From positions 625,522 to 689,521 of the forward strand of contig NZ_KZ454940.1 in NCBI RefSeq assembly GCF_002797355.1: a stretch of DNA of 64,000 nucleotides, read 5' to 3'. This stretch comes from Bacillus xiapuensis. Lineage in GTDB: Bacteria; Bacillota; Bacilli; Bacillales; Domibacillaceae. A program made the position numbers and the translations under genes. This document shows, in pieces, positions 803-6,569 of the stretch; the first letter of the stretch is position 1; the number at the start of each line of letters is the position of its first letter. The notes under the pieces were generated by a model. The model searched no databases. It was not told the origin of the DNA and saw only the letters and a program-made list of their open reading frames with translations.

Positions 803-1519
803 TTATTTCGTCAGGACCTCATCCTTTTCAATTTTAGTTCCCGTCATTTTAACGAACAAACCAGATATTGATGCAATCACAATGGATGAAACCAATGTGA
901 CAAGCAAATTACTAGCAAAAGACATAGCTAGTATATTACCAAAGACAACCACCAGTACAATTCCTGTAACAATAGTTGCTACCGTCGAGTTTAAGAATAT
1001 ACCAGATATACTTGAAATAATTATGATAGAAATAGTTAATATGACCGCTGATATTGAAGTAACCAAAAATTGAGTTAAGTGCATGAATGCATGGTGTGAC
1101 GTAATCAGTATAGGAAATAGTGACTCCGTTAACAGAAAAATAGCGTTTGATAAAGTGATCCCAAGAAGTTGAAACAAAACGAATGTTCCACAAAATGACG
1201 CAACTTTAGTATAGAATAATTGGGAGCGTCCAAATGGATATAGATAAAATCTTATTTTACTTTCACCTATATAATTTTTGACCAGAAAACGATTTACCAT
1301 AACCGTTCCATATACAACAAGTATACACATGCAGATTGTAGATGCTAAACCTGAGAGCGTCATGTAATTTCTAAGAATATCATCCGACTCAGATGTATCG
1401 AATCGTCCGATAATAGCAAAAAAATAAAGTGATAGTAGTTGCGAAAAAAAAGCCATTAAAACAATAATCCATCTATAACTTTTAAGTTGAGATAATTCAA
1501 ATCTAAAGCTATTTTTCAA
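803..1519 (-). CDS. ABC-2-like transporter permease, last gene of the RiPP operon
   Basis: A 238-residue membrane protein with about six hydrophobic segments, resembling ABC-2 permeases of lantibiotic-immunity type; no closer identity is offered. It uses a TTG start at 1519 behind AAGGAGAC, and the preceding ATPase stop sits two bases away, so the pair is translated together. Together with the ATPase at 1521-2246 it would form the second transporter of the operon, for self-protection or export. No clear terminator follows. Confidence 0.75.
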   Translation of the reverse strand: MKNSFRFELSQLKSYRWIIVLMAFFSQLLSLYFFAIIGRFDTSESDDILRNYMTLSGLASTICMCILVVYGTVMVNRFLVKNYIGESKIRFYLYPFGRSQLFYTKVASFCGTFVLFQLLGITLSNAIFLLTESLFPILITSHHAFMHLTQFLVTSISAVILTISIIIISSISGIFLNSTVATIVTGIVLVVVFGNILAMSFASNLLVTLVSSIVIASISGLFVKMTGTKIEKDEVLTK

Positions 1520-1520
1520 T

Positions 1521-2246
1521 TTATCGATTGTCTCCTTTTAGAAATTGATAATACTCCTGAAGCCCGCCCCCATATTCTTGAATGATGTTTTGAACAGATT
1601 TTTTTTCATAAGTTTCACCATTCATCATGAATACAACACTAGAAGCAAAGTCTTCAAGCTCTGACAAAGAGTGGCTCGTAATAAGTATAGATATACCCTT
1701 TTTCTTCAAATCAGTAAGGACTTTTTTTATTAAGTTTATACCATCAACATCAAGTCCATTAAAAGGCTCATCTAATATGAGTATATTAGGCTGGTGAGAG
1801 AGTGCCATTGCCAATTGAAGACGTTGTTTCATCCCTAAAGACAATTTCCCTATTTTTGTTGTAAGCGGAACTTCTAAATCAAGTTTTTTTAGTATCTCTT
1901 GATATGATCCAGGCTCTTCTAATTGAAGATAATGAAAATGCTCGTTAAATAATTGGGAGATCGTCATGCTAGAAATACTTGAAGGAAATGAAAAAACCGT
2001 CCCTATTTGTTTTAATATTTCAGCACGTGATGATTCTGAAAGCAATTTACCATTTACCTTAATAGAACCTTGATCTGGAAATACTAAACCTAATAAACAT
2101 TTAAGTAGCGTAGTTTTGCCAACTCCGTTCGGTCCAATAAGGGCACAAATCTCTCCTCCATAAATATCCATATTAGCCGATTTTATAATTTGTTTGTCAT
2201 TTATAAACTTTTGAACATTAGAAATATTTATTTGTACCAAAATCAT
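1521..2246 (-). CDS. ABC transporter ATP-binding protein (second pair of the RiPP operon)
   Basis: 241 residues with a complete nucleotide-binding domain: Walker A GPNGVGKTT near residue 37, signature LSLGMKQRLQLA, Walker B ILILDEPFNGLD and a switch histidine in ITSHSLSEL. The ATG overlaps the stop of the upstream permease (TAATG), so translation is coupled. It resembles the ATPases of bacteriocin-immunity transporters. The likely partner is the permease at 803-1519, giving an ATPase-permease pair distinct from 2246-3950. Confidence 0.85.
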   Translation of the reverse strand: MILVQINISNVQKFINDKQIIKSANMDIYGGEICALIGPNGVGKTTLLKCLLGLVFPDQGSIKVNGKLLSESSRAEILKQIGTVFSFPSSISSMTISQLFNEHFHYLQLEEPGSYQEILKKLDLEVPLTTKIGKLSLGMKQRLQLAMALSHQPNILILDEPFNGLDVDGINLIKKVLTDLKKKGISILITSHSLSELEDFASSVVFMMNGETYEKKSVQNIIQEYGGGLQEYYQFLKGDNR

Positions 2247-3019
2247 TACTCCCTTTTAGAAAGTGCGATAAGAGATATTAGAAATACAACAACAGCCCAT
2301 AATATTACAACGAACAAATCAATGAAAGAAAAGGTTCCAAAGTGAAATATGGAAGAACGCAACAAATCCGCTGCTGGTACGAATGGAAGAAATTGATAAA
2401 TATTAGCCGACCATTCTGGAAGCCTGTCTATAGGGTAGGTTATTGGGGAAAAAAGTAATCCCCCTATCATGATCAACTGGGTAGCTAATGCCATAATATT
2501 AGGCGGTAAACAATAAGCAATAGCAAACCCGATACAAATCATAGTTATTTGTGCTACCACAATGATTAGACAACTTAATGGAGTTATATACACATTAATA
2601 TCAAAACGAAGCATGGCAGCTAGACATCCCATGAAAACTCCGGGCAATGATGCAATACACCATATGATGATATCTGAAAGTAATATCGCAGTACGTGCAA
2701 CCGGCAATGTCCTTTGGTATTTAAAAATACCATCCTGTTTTGAGGTACTAACCATTTGTGCTGCTAATACACATCCAACTGCGATAATCCCAAGAGAAAT
2801 GGCTCCTGAAGATAAATATATCGCTGAGGATTCATTAATATCTGGAATTAGCAAGGCAAGACCATAGACAATAGCTAAAGCAAAAGCTGCTTGTATAATG
2901 CTAAAAGTAGGCAACAAATATTTATGCCTAACAAGGCTCCAGCGGATTAAGCCCCAGAGCTTTTTCATGTTAAGAATAAGCCCAGTTTCTTTACTATAGA
3001 TGGGTATATTCTTTTTCAT
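2246..3019 (-). CDS. ABC-2 type permease (first pair of the RiPP operon)
   Basis: 257 residues with six predicted membrane segments and an ABC-2 type layout. I chose the ATG at 3019 because it follows a GGGGGG run at good spacing and overlaps the end of the upstream ATPase gene by 26 bases, typical translational coupling. An internal Met at residue 18 has a poorer RBS. With the ATPase at 2994-3950 it probably exports the mature peptide or protects the producer. Confidence 0.8.
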   Translation of the reverse strand: MKKNIPIYSKETGLILNMKKLWGLIRWSLVRHKYLLPTFSIIQAAFALAIVYGLALLIPDINESSAIYLSSGAISLGIIAVGCVLAAQMVSTSKQDGIFKYQRTLPVARTAILLSDIIIWCIASLPGVFMGCLAAMLRFDINVYITPLSCLIIVVAQITMICIGFAIAYCLPPNIMALATQLIMIGGLLFSPITYPIDRLPEWSANIYQFLPFVPAADLLRSSIFHFGTFSFIDLFVVILWAVVVFLISLIALSKRE

Positions 3020-3950
3020 CTGTTACCCCCCCGTATGACGCTTCCAGTGATGCCGAAGAAAGTTTGTAGTTAACGATTTTCCCTTGTTTAATTAGGCTTA
3101 GCACCCAATCAATTGCATCAGGAATTTGCTGAGATGAAAGAGTAAAGACGACTTGCATTTCATCCTCTATAAATCTAGTCTCAATAGAGTCTGGTAAATC
3201 AGATAAATAATTCCAATCATTCAAAACAACAGAAAGGATATTTGACATCATTTGTCCATTCATTCCTCTAGCGGGCTCATCTTTAATCAGAAGACCGCGA
3301 TCAAATAATAGAAAGCGATCAACATATTGTTCAGCTTCCAATAGATTATGAGTGACAACTATTACAATATGCCCGTTATTGGCCAAATTCCTCATATACT
3401 TCCAAACCAATTTTCGTCTCACAGGATCTACATCATTTGTAGGTTCATCAAGCAAAATAATAGGCGGAGGACATACAACGGCCATTGCGAAAGACGCTAA
3501 TCGTTGTAAACCACCCGAAAGCTTTTCTCCAGGTCTGTCAGCCCACTGTTCAATATTTAAATCCGCTAATATTTCATCAACATATTTTTTATTGTGCTTT
3601 CCAGAAATACCCCGAATATATAAAACTGACTCTATAGATTGACGTAAAGTAACTCCAGATAACGGCGCGTGAAACTGCGGCATCATAGAGACTAGTTCTC
3701 TAGCCAGCTTTGTGTTACGAACAAAAGATTTACCTTGATAAATGATGTCACCGTGATCAGGCTTTACATTACCAATAATTTGGTTCAATAATGTCGTTTT
3801 GCCAGCTCCATTATGACCAATAATAGCTACTATTTCATTTAGATAAAATATAGCTGAAATATCACAATTAGCCTTCACGTTTCCACGTTTATAAGATTTG
3901 GATATTGAATTAATCTGCAAACACTCTGTAGTAATTTTATTTTTATTCAT
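2994..3950 (-). CDS. ABC transporter ATP-binding protein (first pair of the RiPP operon)
   Basis: 318 residues. The ATPase domain occupies about residues 10-235: Walker A GHNGAGKTTL, signature LSGGLQRLASFAM, Walker B IILLDEPTNDVDP and switch region VVTHNLLEAE. A C-terminal extension of about 80 residues, as in ABC-2 drug or bacteriocin exporters, follows. It lies 42 bases after the M50 protease gene and overlaps its permease. The signature LSGGLQR differs from the usual LSGGQ/M but is tolerated in such exporters. Confidence 0.85.
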   Translation of the reverse strand: MNKNKITTECLQINSISKSYKRGNVKANCDISAIFYLNEIVAIIGHNGAGKTTLLNQIIGNVKPDHGDIIYQGKSFVRNTKLARELVSMMPQFHAPLSGVTLRQSIESVLYIRGISGKHNKKYVDEILADLNIEQWADRPGEKLSGGLQRLASFAMAVVCPPPIILLDEPTNDVDPVRRKLVWKYMRNLANNGHIVIVVTHNLLEAEQYVDRFLLFDRGLLIKDEPARGMNGQMMSNILSVVLNDWNYLSDLPDSIETRFIEDEMQVVFTLSSQQIPDAIDWVLSLIKQGKIVNYKLSSASLEASYGGVTDEKEYTHL

Positions 3951-3992
3951 TTTGGCATCACCGTATTGTTATTAATGACCTTTACTATATTG

Positions 3993-4895
3993 CTATGAGA
4001 AAAATTTCGAAAAAACAGCTAAAATTAAGCTCCAGAAAAGAGGGATTAACCAATATACAACTATAATGGCATCGACAAGATACCCAATTATTTTTAACTT
4101 ACGCCATGTCTGAACGTCTTTATCGGCTTCATCTGTCTGCTCTAAAGCAAGCATTGGATTATCTAATACCGATAAAGCAATGAGTTGACCATCACAATTC
4201 TTATGAAAGCGGAATTGCCAAATAATTCTCAACCATAGAATAGAGATGGCTGCAGTTAACATCCAGTTTGTTATTACCAAATTTACCAATGACAGACAAG
4301 CTAATAGAAAGAAATCAAAGATGACTCCGGCAGATAGCGCAGCAAACCTTGATAGAAAAGACCACAACCAAATATGAGTCATAGATACGGTTGCCTTGGC
4401 TTTGGAAAACTGTAAACGAAGCCCTCCTGCTTTGTATCCGAAAGTTCGTGCAAAGATGACATGCATTAATTCATGAACTAAGGTTGTTGATAATGAAAAA
4501 ATCACGATATAAAGTATATTTATTAATAAAGGTACTGAGTCATTGATAATTTTACTTCCACTAGGTACTCCATAAAAAAGTGTTAATACAAGGACCGTAA
4601 TCGAGGAAAGTGCCCCTATGATGAAAAGAATACCTCTTGCAAGTTTCCACTGTAAGCTCGTACTTTCCTTTGGCAGTTTCTTCATTTCAGTAGAAGAATC
4701 TGCATAAAAGCCGTTTTCTTTTAAAATGTTCAAAACATCCTCACTATAACATTCCAGTTCATCCCTAGACTGAGCTAAGCATTTAGCCAATTCTTCGTCA
4801 ACTACCAGAGGAACGGCCTCTTCTGCTAAGACTATCCACTTTCCGCTTTTTAGTTTTCTTGAAAACACAGGTTTAAGAAAAAGTCCCTCTGTCAT
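3993..4895 (-). CDS. M50-like membrane zinc metalloprotease (YydH-like)
   Basis: 300 residues. The first 70 are soluble with a small winged-helix-like composition; several membrane segments follow from about residue 85. HELMH at 141-145 is the HExxH zinc motif of M50 site-2-type proteases, and a later CDGQ near residue 235 may supply the acidic ligand. The arrangement modifying enzyme, M50 protease, ABC ATPase, permease mirrors the B. subtilis yydFGHIJ epipeptide operon, where YydH holds this place. Removal of the leader from the modified peptide is the likely role, by inference. It lies 13 bases after the thiF-like gene. Confidence 0.75.
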   Translation of the reverse strand: MTEGLFLKPVFSRKLKSGKWIVLAEEAVPLVVDEELAKCLAQSRDELECYSEDVLNILKENGFYADSSTEMKKLPKESTSLQWKLARGILFIIGALSSITVLVLTLFYGVPSGSKIINDSVPLLINILYIVIFSLSTTLVHELMHVIFARTFGYKAGGLRLQFSKAKATVSMTHIWLWSFLSRFAALSAGVIFDFFLLACLSLVNLVITNWMLTAAISILWLRIIWQFRFHKNCDGQLIALSVLDNPMLALEQTDEADKDVQTWRKLKIIGYLVDAIIVVYWLIPLFWSLILAVFSKFFS

Positions 4896-4908
4896 TTAAA
4901 ATCAAACC

Positions 4909-6051
4909 TTACTTTTTATTCTCATAATATTGAAATATCTCCCAATCTTCGATGCTCCCTTTTCCGCAAGTTGGGCATTCATCAGCATATCTATGCCATG
5001 ACGGGTGAGTGAATGAAGAAGCATCCTCAAAGTTGATTTCATATTGAGTACTTAGGCTTCTCGGTTCTACGTATCCTGTAATAACTCTTACTGCTTCATC
5101 AACAATAGCAGCTGTAAGTTGGAAAATGGCAGGTGCATATGCAATGGTAGGTGGCGAAAAATTTATCTCTCTAAAAGCCACGAATTGTTCTATAAATTGT
5201 GGATCATTCATACTGTAATGGAGATTTAAACAATCAAAACAACCAGTTTTTCCCGGTATTACAGTAAAAACTCGTCCTCGACTGACTTGAGATGCACCGA
5301 AAACGCATGGGACATTAGCTTTAACTATTGCCTGATTTACAATTCTTTGGGCAACAAATGGTGGCTCATCTATAGCACAAATTACCAAATCAACACCATC
5401 TATGAGTTTCAAAACGTCATCAGGCGTTTTAATCTTTTGGTTATGTGCTTCTATTTCTAATTGTGAATTCATTTGAGAAATTGCTCTTGCCGCTGCTTCA
5501 CATTTAGGAGAACCGATATCTGATTCTTTGTATAACAATTGTCTGCCTAAATTACTTTCCTCCACGTTATCGTAATCAACAATAATGATTTTTTTAGGTC
5601 CCAGACCAGACAAAAGAGTAAGGATGTTCGAACCTCCTCCTCCAAGCCCTAAAAGAAGAATCGTAGTTTCATTGATTTTCTTTTGGGGGTTAAACCGATT
5701 GCCATTTGTTCCAATGAATCTACTAAAATAATTGACGTTTGGCATATAACGTTCTGGAATTCCAGCATTATCCTCATAAATTGTTTCTTCTAAGAATCCT
5801 TCGTTATCTAACAGAGTAACCCCTTCAATGATGTCTTTTTCTGATAATTCCGGAAAAAGTTCTATCATTTCTTGTATAACATTCTCTACGCTTCTTCCGT
5901 CTAAGCGTGATGCAAGCTCCCATAGTTGACCATCTGGATCACCAAACTCAGCGGTGATACCCAATTGCGCACCAATTCTGAACTCCTTTTCATTCAATCT
6001 ATATAGTGGATAGATTGGTTTAATACGAGGTTTATTGTACTTATTATTCAT
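4909..6051 (-). CDS. ThiF/MccB-like adenylyltransferase with RRE-like N-terminus
   Basis: 380 residues. Residues about 14-95 look like a PqqD-type winged helix (RiPP recognition element or MccB peptide clamp). An E1-like domain follows: GLGGGGSN nucleotide loop at 135-142, DYDNVEESNLGRQ at 159-171, and two zinc CxxC pairs, C271/C274 and C359/C362. Enzymes of this family activate a peptide carboxylate with ATP; MccB does so on a C-terminal Asn. The ATG at 6051 follows AGGAGG. It lies 93 bases after a 21-codon peptide gene, its probable substrate, with a hairpin between. The reaction is unknown, because the peptide lacks the terminal Asn used by MccB. Confidence 0.85.
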   Translation of the reverse strand: MNNKYNKPRIKPIYPLYRLNEKEFRIGAQLGITAEFGDPDGQLWELASRLDGRSVENVIQEMIELFPELSEKDIIEGVTLLDNEGFLEETIYEDNAGIPERYMPNVNYFSRFIGTNGNRFNPQKKINETTILLLGLGGGGSNILTLLSGLGPKKIIIVDYDNVEESNLGRQLLYKESDIGSPKCEAAARAISQMNSQLEIEAHNQKIKTPDDVLKLIDGVDLVICAIDEPPFVAQRIVNQAIVKANVPCVFGASQVSRGRVFTVIPGKTGCFDCLNLHYSMNDPQFIEQFVAFREINFSPPTIAYAPAIFQLTAAIVDEAVRVITGYVEPRSLSTQYEINFEDASSFTHPSWHRYADECPTCGKGSIEDWEIFQYYENKK

Positions 6052-6079
6052 ACTAGCCTCCTAAATATTGATTTATAAA

Positions 6080-6119
6080 AACAAAGTCGAGGTTTCAAAT
6101 AACTAACCTCGACTTTGTT
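6080..6119 (-). terminator. Attenuator or terminator hairpin between precursor and enzyme genes
   Basis: AACAAAGTCGAGGTT (6080-6094) and AACCTCGACTTTGTT (6105-6119) form a perfect 15-bp stem with a 10-base loop. On the minus strand it is followed directly by a T-rich stretch. It starts 25 bases after the precursor stop and ends 28 bases before the thiF-like start. Such partial terminators are common in RiPP operons and keep precursor mRNA in excess over enzyme mRNA. Confidence 0.75.
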
Positions 6120-6144
6120 CTGAATTAAGTGGCCGTCAAATACA

Positions 6145-6210
6145 TTAGAAGATGATCCACCATGCTGTAGCTTCAACCTTAACTGCACGACGAACAGTAA
6201 CTTTTTTCAT
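6145..6210 (-). CDS. Putative RiPP precursor peptide, 21 residues
   Basis: A short gene not found by length-filtered ORF calling. It starts with ATG at 6210, preceded by GGAGGTG six bases upstream, the best ribosome binding site seen in this region. The peptide is basic at the start (MKKVTVRRAVK), then VEATAWWIIF and a TAA stop. The basic part would be the leader bound by the RRE-like domain, and the hydrophobic end ATAWWIIF the core. It has no Cys or Asn and only one Glu, so lanthionine, thiazole and microcin C chemistry are unlikely. Position first in the operon, the RBS and the following attenuator support it. Product and modification are inferred. Confidence 0.72.
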   Translation of the reverse strand: MKKVTVRRAVKVEATAWWIIF

Positions 6211-6299
6211 CAAGTTCACCTCCATCTCCACAGTACAAAACAAATAATCGATAATAGTTAAGACTTCAGTAATCAATATATTGTTTTGACTGAGTTTTA

Positions 6300-6315
6300 A
6301 TTTGCTATAGCAAAT
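6300..6315. promoter_or_regulatory. 16-bp palindrome in the RiPP promoter region, possible operator
   Basis: ATTTGCTATAGCAAAT is a perfect 16-bp palindrome, 90 bases upstream of the precursor start and inside an A+T-rich stretch (6224-6364) that must contain the operon promoter. On the minus strand TTTGCTATAGC could serve as an extended -10, with TTTAGC 18 bases upstream as a weak -35. The palindrome would then overlap the promoter and suit a dimeric repressor. No dedicated regulator gene is seen in the operon; the XRE gene at 7606-7809 is the nearest candidate. Confidence 0.4.
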
Positions 6316-6364
6316 ATTTACACTCGAGCTAAATTTATATTACCATTATTTAGTTGCAAAAATG

Positions 6365-6403
6365 AGTGCGGCTTTCCGAAATATTTATTCGGAAAGCCGC
6401 ACT
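6365..6403 (-). terminator. Rho-independent terminator, 16-bp perfect stem
   Basis: AGTGCGGCTTTCCGAA (6365-6380) pairs perfectly with 6388-6403 around a 7-base loop. On the minus strand it is followed by CATTTTTG. It ends the small operon to its right (genes 6423-7363) and insulates the RiPP promoter from it. Confidence 0.85.
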
Positions 6404-6422
6404 TGACAAATTCATAATGATG

Positions 6423-6569
6423 CTAATACAGTTCATCAGGAAGTTCAAAATGTACAGGTGAAAAGCCGTGCAAAGAATTCATCTCTGAATAGGACTTCCC
6501 CCCCTTCCCCGAATGACCGTTTTTCAGTTCAATTTTAGGGAAGTAAATCTTAAATTGATCCATCATCAT
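6423..6569 (-). CDS. Small ORF, 48 residues, unknown
   Basis: Starts at one of three successive ATGs 12 bases after the stop of the membrane-protein gene at 6582 and ends 19 bases before the strong terminator, so it fits as last gene of that operon. The peptide begins MMMDQFKIYFPKIELKNG, has a Gly/Lys/Ser-rich middle and ends PVHFELPDELY. No hydrophobic segment or Cys. No strong RBS precedes the first ATG; an internal Met at residue 30 follows a G-rich stretch. It could be a small protein, a peptide signal or the 3' remnant of a longer gene. Confidence 0.4.
   Translation of the reverse strand: MMMDQFKIYFPKIELKNGHSGKGGKSYSEMNSLHGFSPVHFELPDELY

Follow-up and report, generated by a model that had tools for sequence, protein, structure and literature searches.

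Enterofaecin, from Enterococcus faecalis, is described as the product of a 21-residue precursor, EnfA, which has Trp17 and Trp18 and a WWIVI end, and whose C-terminus is cyclised by EnfB (PMC12250964). The same review gives a leader motif of (V/I)RKA, the EnfB residues Arg167, Lys180 and Asp225, and four transporter proteins, and it mentions regulators. The product is reported there as a macrocyclic imide on the Ile19 amide nitrogen, a structure said to be backed by mass spectrometry and NMR; EnfB is also reported to amidate its substrate in vitro, and Trp17 and Trp18 are both given as crucial for the enzyme. The authors of the work on IndF, from Streptococcus pneumoniae, hold that the exact structure of enterofaecin still needs detailed NMR (PMC12150305). 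IndF itself forms an indolylamide, proven by NMR, in which the indole nitrogen of the Trp at position -4 of the precursor is joined to the C-terminal Ile; a W-to-A substrate was not converted, and Tyr228 and Lys256 were proposed to activate the indole. Adenylation of a peptide C-terminus with cyclisation is known from both enzymes (PMC12250964, PMC12150305).

The window, a stretch of 64,000 nucleotides from Bacillus xiapuensis, contains the following features, all on the minus strand.

6217..6223, minus strand: ribosome-binding site GGAGGTG, six bases 5' of the precursor ATG
6145..6210, minus strand: precursor peptide gene, MKKVTVRRAVKVEATAWWIIF (21 aa), with leader motif VRRA and C-terminal WWIIF; kin peptides at 17 other loci
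6082..6117, minus strand: predicted hairpin with a T-run after it, resembling a partial terminator, in the interval from precursor to thiF, 13 pairs, -17.9 kcal/mol
4909..6051, minus strand: ThiF/E1-like adenylyltransferase, EnfB-type (PF00899, E 1.3e-54), with R170, Q171, K183 and D228 at the ATP site
3993..4895, minus strand: membrane metalloprotease with HExxH (HELMH), M50/YydH-LiaK-like by weak family matches, putative leader peptidase
2994..3950, minus strand: ABC transporter ATPase 1, putative exporter (family matches and synteny)
2246..3019, minus strand: ABC-2 type permease 1 (family match and synteny)
1521..2246, minus strand: ABC transporter ATPase 2, best NCBIfam model TIGR03740 (lantibiotic-protection ABC) at 153.3 bits, below the cut-off of 309.75
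803..1519, minus strand: membrane protein presumed to be the permease that pairs with ATPase 2, with syntenic homologues and no Pfam or NCBIfam match

Judged by sequence comparison, this locus is a RiPP operon of the published enterofaecin (WWIII-type) family and not a new kind, because the precursor length, the Trp17-Trp18-Ile19 arrangement, the positions of EnfB R167, K180 and D225, and the four transporter proteins match those reported, and the leader motif is similar (VR(K/R)A). It differs from the enterofaecin cluster, as the review describes it, in that the precursor ends in Phe, the leader has VRRA for (V/I)RKA, regulator genes are absent beside the cluster, and the host, though of the same class as the Streptococcus locus, belongs to another order. 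The original prediction had announced a candidate new RiPP locus with the short gene as its precursor; the RiPP locus and the precursor stand, but the family had already been published (PMC12250964), and a wholly new RiPP class is ruled out by the match to the enterofaecin features. The operon appears to be complete, with genes for the synthesis, trimming and export of a tiny, Trp-containing, probably cyclic peptide, and its gene order is kept among homologous loci. With those loci the family, a group of ThiF RiPPs described in lactic acid bacteria, also takes in the Bacillales, Clostridia and Actinomycetota.

The 21-codon open reading frame is, on comparative grounds, a real peptide gene of the enterofaecin family, and it has a good ribosome-binding site. 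The original prediction had named a lack of conservation of the short gene beside homologous thiF genes as counting against it. We found the reverse, since a kin peptide sharing both leader and tail lies 5' of a homologous thiF at 17 other loci (18 including the window), which span the Bacillales, Clostridia, Lactobacillales and Actinomycetota. At four of these loci the thiF is broken or partial (L049, L056/L066 and L072, with internal stop or frame change; L049 a fragment). The VRRA motif of the window is a conservative change from (V/I)RKA, and VRKA occurs in L052, L053, L054, L056 and L072. Among ten precursor pairs compared, synonymous change clearly exceeded non-synonymous change in eight, as between the window and Amphibacillus (pS 0.57, pN 0.04). 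The two kinds of change were about equal in the L052-L054 pair (0.11 and 0.10), and synonymous change was the lower in the near-identical L041-L049 pair (0.00 and 0.02). A chance open reading frame is ruled out by the kin peptides at 17 loci together with the synonymous excess in eight of ten pairs. The promoter scan returned 30 candidates where chance alone would give 28.2, and the search for LytTR-type repeats 5' of the precursors gave only scattered matches and low-complexity noise.

The original prediction also spoke of an attenuator; a 13-pair hairpin with a T-run is indeed predicted at 6082-6117, but it is missing from the terminator scan, which admits loops of up to 8 bases where this one has 10. 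Among the 18 loci, such a hairpin was found 3' of the precursor in 14, two of these being weak (L006, L040), and in four none was found. In trp operons the leader carries adjacent Trp codons and, after them, a terminator hairpin. The two Trp codons of the window, about 39 bases 5' of the hairpin, resemble this arrangement, and the short gene could on that account be read as a Trp attenuation leader rather than a precursor. We regard this as very improbable and have rejected it: the entire peptide is conserved beyond its Trp codons, with the synonymous excess described above, WW is replaced by RW in L053 and by LW in L050, the hairpin sequences are unlike between most loci where they are not absent, and the kin peptides are reported enzyme substrates (PMC12150305, PMC12250964).

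The E1-like enzyme of the original prediction is borne out by the PF00899 match. By alignment, its R170, K183 and D228 correspond to EnfB R167, K180 and D225, the EnfB positions being taken from the residue numbers in the review (PMC12250964); the homologue at L054 has the EnfB numbering itself. PaaA (5ff5), the pantocin A enzyme, carries a RiPP recognition element at its N-terminus, and a profile match to it covers residues 5-346 of the window ThiF, including the N-terminal part; pantocin A has another precursor and another core chemistry, its core being reported as bicyclic (PMC12150305). In the position of IndF Tyr228 and Lys256 the window has Phe232 and Arg260, both changed, whereas IndF Thr298 is kept as Thr302; the equivalents of Phe232 and Arg260 are invariant across a 13-row alignment of WWI-type enzymes. 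The motif DEP[PA][FY] occurs in all WWI-type and IndF-type ThiFs examined except that of L069 (DFPPY); it is absent from the remaining RiPP ThiFs examined and present also in L083; the survey left out the ThiFs of L049, L070, L071, L072 and L080. In unrooted trees a branch supported at 95/92 (51 rows) and 97/95 (38 rows) places the WWI-type and IndF-type ThiFs together on one side. The larger tree omits L010, L055, L009 and L056 from 55 rows; the smaller consists of chosen rows, from which near-copies, fragmentary and broken genes, and the longest branches were excluded; L083, L071 and L072 are in neither. The two groups are distant from one another, and the 51-row tree carries a long-branch warning.

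All 25 intact precursors found have Trp at -4, the IndF-type NWYFI peptides and the window precursor among them, and at L071 the core of IndA, EDTTNWYFI, is found in a peptide adjoining an IndF-type gene. Position -5 varies (W, R in L053, L in L050, N, Q and S), as do residues -1 to -3 (I, V, F, A, Y, N and G). In this count one place was counted once (L009/L050/L067, L061/L070 and L071/L080), and it was made without L048, whose contig starts 141 bases upstream, the decayed L065 and L055, and L051 (a 35% match). The precursor script listed no candidate for L024, L026, L027, L031, L034, L035 and L037. The ind cluster shares with the window the side of the trees on which its ThiF falls, Trp at -4, a hydrophobic C-terminal residue and the C-terminal adenylation predicted for the window; unlike the window, it is described with a longer, acidic IndA ending in NWYFI, an M16-type protease and one transporter (PMC12150305).

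We consider it reasonably probable that the operon makes an enterofaecin-type RiPP by closure of a ring at Trp18, removal of the leader and export. The N-terminal domain of ThiF would bind the VRRA leader and the enzyme would adenylate the Phe21 carboxylate at the C-terminus; AMP would then be displaced by the Trp18 indole nitrogen, with loss of water overall, to give a four-residue Trp-Ile-Ile-Phe indolylamide ring. After ring closure the HELMH protease would cut off the leader, the first ABC pair would export the cyclic core, and the second would be another exporter or an immunity pump. Gene content, conservation, family placement, the ATP-site residues and Trp at -4 in all intact precursors support this at the sequence level. 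We favour the indolylamide over the imide reported for enterofaecin because Trp is constant at -4 while -5 varies, the WWI-type and IndF-type enzymes group together in the trees, and IndF, whose ring is one possible model here, is proven by NMR to join the Trp(-4) indole nitrogen to the C-terminus (PMC12150305).

The same activation could instead be followed by attack of the Ile19 amide nitrogen on the activated Phe21 carboxylate, giving a backbone imide. Such a ring is the one described for EnfB on the strength of mass spectrometry and NMR, and the WWI clade does not keep the IndF residues proposed to activate the indole. The role reported for Trp17 (PMC12250964) is unexplained by a ring at Trp18, and the distance between the two ThiF groups, the long branches and the unrooted trees also tell against carrying the indolylamide over from IndF. 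The imide alone, however, leaves unexplained why Trp(-4) is constant while -1 to -3 vary, and the enterofaecin structure itself is said by the IndF authors to need detailed NMR (PMC12150305); we hold the imide to be rather unlikely here. The two rings have identical mass. It is more doubtful still that activation of the C-terminus by ThiF leads to an intermolecular product (an amide, nucleotide or thioester) with no ring. Amidation of its substrate by EnfB is reported in vitro (PMC12250964), MccB of microcin C is the best PDB sequence match of the window ThiF (E 8.6e-36), and microcin C shares with the reaction predicted for the window E1-like adenylation of the C-terminus of a ribosomal peptide (MccA in microcin C). 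The window precursor lacks the C-terminal Asn of microcin C, however, no nucleotide-tailoring or immunity-peptidase genes were recognised among the proteins of the operon, and a nucleotide product of that kind was set aside as a first choice. Both characterised relatives, IndF and EnfB, are reported to cyclise (PMC12150305, PMC12250964), and activation for cyclisation rather than nucleotide attachment, as the original prediction suggested, is most likely.

More widely, all ThiFs of the DEP[PA][FY] clade, EnfB included, may close the same ring between the Trp(-4) indole and the C-terminus, and would then define a mobile class of exported four-residue indolylamides, partly Agr-like pheromones, across the Bacillota and Actinomycetota. 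This is a tentative proposal, to which we give slightly less than an even chance. If EnfB does close such a ring, the imide structure of enterofaecin would need revision. The corresponding sequence rule pairs a ThiF having DEP[PA][FY] with a precursor having Trp at -4; if it reflects chemistry, the ring is predicted for the two dozen clusters collected, and the choice between imide and indolylamide for enterofaecin, called unsettled by one group, becomes directly testable.

Agr-like genes adjoin nine of 20 such clusters. The window cluster is not among these; its operon contains no regulator gene, no Agr-like pair flanks it, and a search of its genome found no near relative of the Niallia kinase. 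We have treated regulators as accessory because they were also unseen beside several other clusters of the clade.

The predicted HELMH membrane protease is present, with a weak likeness to YydH. It matches PF02163 at E 0.011 (15.5 bits, below the cut-off of 27.2) and the NCBIfam YydH/LiaK model NF058609 at E 1.3e-10 (41.4 bits, well below the cut-off of 225, and so outside the family as defined); five of nine aligned homologues match NF058609 at E <= 0.01, and a search of solved structures with the protease profile gave no match at E <= 0.1. The epipeptide system YydFGHIJ likewise has a membrane protease and an ABC pair (PMC7026026), but with a radical SAM epimerase and no ThiF. Homologues of the HExxH protease occur at related Lactobacillales-type loci, whereas the review's account of enterofaecin does not mention one (PMC12250964). 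The two predicted ABC ATPase/permease pairs were located at 803-3950, the fourth protein (803-1519) being assigned by synteny. The second ATPase possibly serves immunity, because its best NCBIfam model is the lantibiotic-protection ABC.

The short gene, ThiF enzyme, HELMH protease and two ATPase/permease pairs named in the original prediction are all present at 803-6210 on the minus strand, arranged as listed here.

Features of the window operon
6145-6210, minus strand: precursor gene of 21 codons, MKKVTVRRAVKVEATAWWIIF
6082-6117, minus strand: 13-pair hairpin with a T-run, separating the precursor from thiF
4909-6051, minus strand: thiF, downstream of the precursor
3993-4895, minus strand: HELMH membrane protein, a putative protease
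2994-3950, minus strand: ATPase 1
2246-3019, minus strand: permease 1
1521-2246, minus strand: ATPase 2
803-1519, minus strand: permease 2

A ribosome binding site, GGAGGTG, lies six bases ahead of the precursor ATG on the same strand. The window terminator scan omits the hairpin because its loop exceeds the limit of the scan. Included in that scan is a palindrome upstream of the precursor (6365-6403, with a 16-pair stem and a T-rich tail), which comes directly after a 48-aa ORF (6423-6569) and is probably the terminator of the upstream transcript. An IS200/IS605-type transposase gene (134-604) adjoins the operon's end.

The locus had been proposed as a new RiPP type, but its sequence features place it in the recently described enterofaecin family. 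According to a review, EnfA is a 21-residue peptide that contains Trp17/Trp18 and ends in WWIVI, the leader motif is (V/I)RKA, EnfB requires Arg167, Lys180, and Asp225, and the cluster encodes four transporter proteins and regulators (PMC12250964). Among the thiF loci collected for comparison (L-numbers), L054 (precursor MKKVNVRKADTVDATAWWIVI) has a ThiF with R167, K180, and D225, numbered identically to the EnfB residues; their counterparts in the window ThiF are, by alignment, R170, K183, and D228. Since the sequence features tested match, including the Arg/Lys/Asp set, we count the window as an enterofaecin-family member on sequence grounds, save for the exact leader motif and the regulators: the window has VRRA instead of (V/I)RKA and has no regulators. 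It is a real, complete-looking member of this family in a new host group. A partial literature survey found, in titles and abstract openings, no account of the window locus or of the family outside lactic acid bacteria; given the survey's partial nature and that the network built by the IndF authors covered every bacterial RefSeq protein (PMC12150305), we claim no priority.

A profile search of genome contigs with an alignment of three ThiFs gave 14 loci, and a plasmid collection and other genomes gave more. Similar short ORFs beside thiF homologues, the search proposed with the original prediction, were found: 18 intact WWI-type precursors (most with a tryptophan pair near the C-terminus) were compared, from the window, Amphibacillus jilinensis, a Niallia taxi megaplasmid, Falcatimonas, Acetivibrio, two Lactococcus, a Defluviitaleaceae MAG, Corynebacterium, Tessaracoccus, Actinomyces, Nonomuraea, Streptococcus, and five further genomes. 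Most approach the consensus MK-[VI]-VR[RK]A-K-V-[ED]AT-[AV]-WWI[IV][FIV], the more divergent being L042, L047, and most of all L050 (MRQAKVREPIQAGDVLWVVF). Synonymous change clearly exceeded non-synonymous change in 8 of 10 precursor pairs; the two were about equal in L052-L054 (0.11 vs 0.10), and synonymous change was the lower in L041-L049 (0.00 vs 0.02). A hairpin with a T-run lies 3' of the precursor in 14 of the 18 loci (weak in two), and none was found there in L039, L044, L046, and L047. At L065 (reverse strand, about 4900-6130) the precursor is truncated ahead of its tryptophans, and an internal stop interrupts thiF, so the two genes decay together.

The window cluster yields a testable rule on the ring. 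Trp occupies position -4 from the C-terminus (Trp18 in the window) in all 25 intact precursors found (the 18 WWI-type, then L045, L057, L059, L061, L069, and L071, and finally L083, a 19-residue peptide with a WGII end), with W, R, L, N, Q, or S at -5. Streptococcus pneumoniae IndF attaches the C-terminal Ile to the Trp(-4) indole nitrogen, as proven by NMR (PMC12150305). The IndF-type loci in our set have NWYFI, NWNFI, and WQWYFI ends, and L071 has an IndA-like precursor ending in EDTTNWYFI. In two unrooted trees, a branch supported at 95/92 (51 rows) and 97/95 (38 rows) has the WWI-type and IndF-type ThiFs together on one side. Neither tree contains L071, L072, or L083, and the 51-row tree carries a long-branch warning. 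On the other side are ThiFs with no listed Trp(-4) precursor candidate, seven of these loci having no candidate of any kind. Both types contain DEP[PA][FY] (DFPPY in L069), and every other ThiF in the motif comparison lacks it. Conservation of the target Trp argues for an IndF-like ring, and we consider it reasonably probable that the window ring is an indolylamide.

For enterofaecin, the reported ring is instead an imide, closed through the Ile19 amide nitrogen and backed by mass spectrometry and NMR according to the review (PMC12250964); the IndF authors state that the exact structure needs more NMR (PMC12150305). The review also describes Trp17 as crucial for EnfB (PMC12250964), a role that a ring at Trp18 leaves unexplained. 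IndF residues Q167, K179, Y228, K256, and T298 fall exactly on L069 positions by residue spacing, and their window equivalents, by spacing and alignment, are Q171, K183, F232, R260, and T302; F232 and R260 are invariant in a 13-row WWI alignment. The replacement of Tyr and Lys argues for either a different mode of indole activation or a different ring. We regard the reported imide as rather unlikely in the window product.

Gene content was counted in 20 distinct loci from 21 entries (L050 and L067 are one place), with genes hidden by the non-overlap filter recovered from a separate synteny comparison. All 20 have ATPase 1 (a weak match in L047) and a ThiF homologue, the latter broken or partial in L049, L065, and L066. 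Nineteen carry the protease, which is missing from L050 and reduced to a fragment in L049, and 19 carry permease 1, for which L047 gave no match. The second ATPase/permease pair was counted in 16 loci; it is broken or incomplete in L049 and L063, and in L039 and L040 it precedes the precursor. In four actinomycete loci a TetR-type gene sits between the protease and ATPase 1 on the opposite strand, verified by Pfam in both loci tested (L043 and L046).

The protease retains H141-E142-xx-H145 and D235-G236 in 9/9 aligned members, and 5/9 weakly match the YydH/LiaK epipeptide protease at E <= 0.01. For Bacillus subtilis, YydH is presumed to free YydF, and immunity was postulated for YydIJ, yet they proved a minor determinant (PMC7026026). 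By analogy with YydH, to which the window protease bears a weak sequence likeness, the HELMH protease would remove the leader. The best model for ATPase 2 is lantibiotic-protection, with a score below that model's cut-off.

Beside the cluster, 9 of the 20 loci encode an Agr-like sensor kinase, a LytTR regulator, or both (in L041 just part of the regulator, where the contig ends). In L006, L049, and L050, Pfam searches with three kinases and two regulators identified GHKL, response-regulator, and LytTR domains; the other Agr-like calls were judged from first residues. The GHKL kinase and LytTR regulator together span 5519-7521 in L006 and 7673-9611 in L050, and the kinase lies at 8592-9878 in L049. 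This suggests that the peptide is a signal in these three hosts, where Agr-like genes lie by a WWI-type cluster. The window cluster has no adjoining Agr-like kinase or LytTR regulator, and a search of its genome with the Niallia kinase gave no close relative, the one match being 28% across the kinase domain. Four clusters with LytTR regulators (L052, L053, L054, and L056) share, by eye, a TTACAT-containing stretch that precedes the precursor by some 120-160 bases and is a candidate operator.

The enzyme occurs at E <= 1e-30 in 1 of 24 genomes of the window's family, namely its own, and at E <= 1e-40 in 1/391 genomes of the class of Falcatimonas (Falcatimonas itself) and 2/394 of that of Actinomyces (Actinomyces itself and L083, 41%). 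Two clostridial homologues share 81% identity with the window ThiF, versus 76% for that of Niallia. Horizontal spread of the cluster is likely.

L012-L022 and L028 form a separate ThiF RiPP group whose precursors, encoded upstream of thiF, resemble MKIQAKKVESVRTTAVAA; L028 has five of them in tandem. Trp-free short peptides such as MKKIKIKKVEKLVALVNHHA, MSIKKIATPATVVEGR, and MLKQKRVHSASIAGIAVEG adjoin ThiF in L029/L030, L032, L033/L078, and L074/L075, which are apparently distinct subfamilies.
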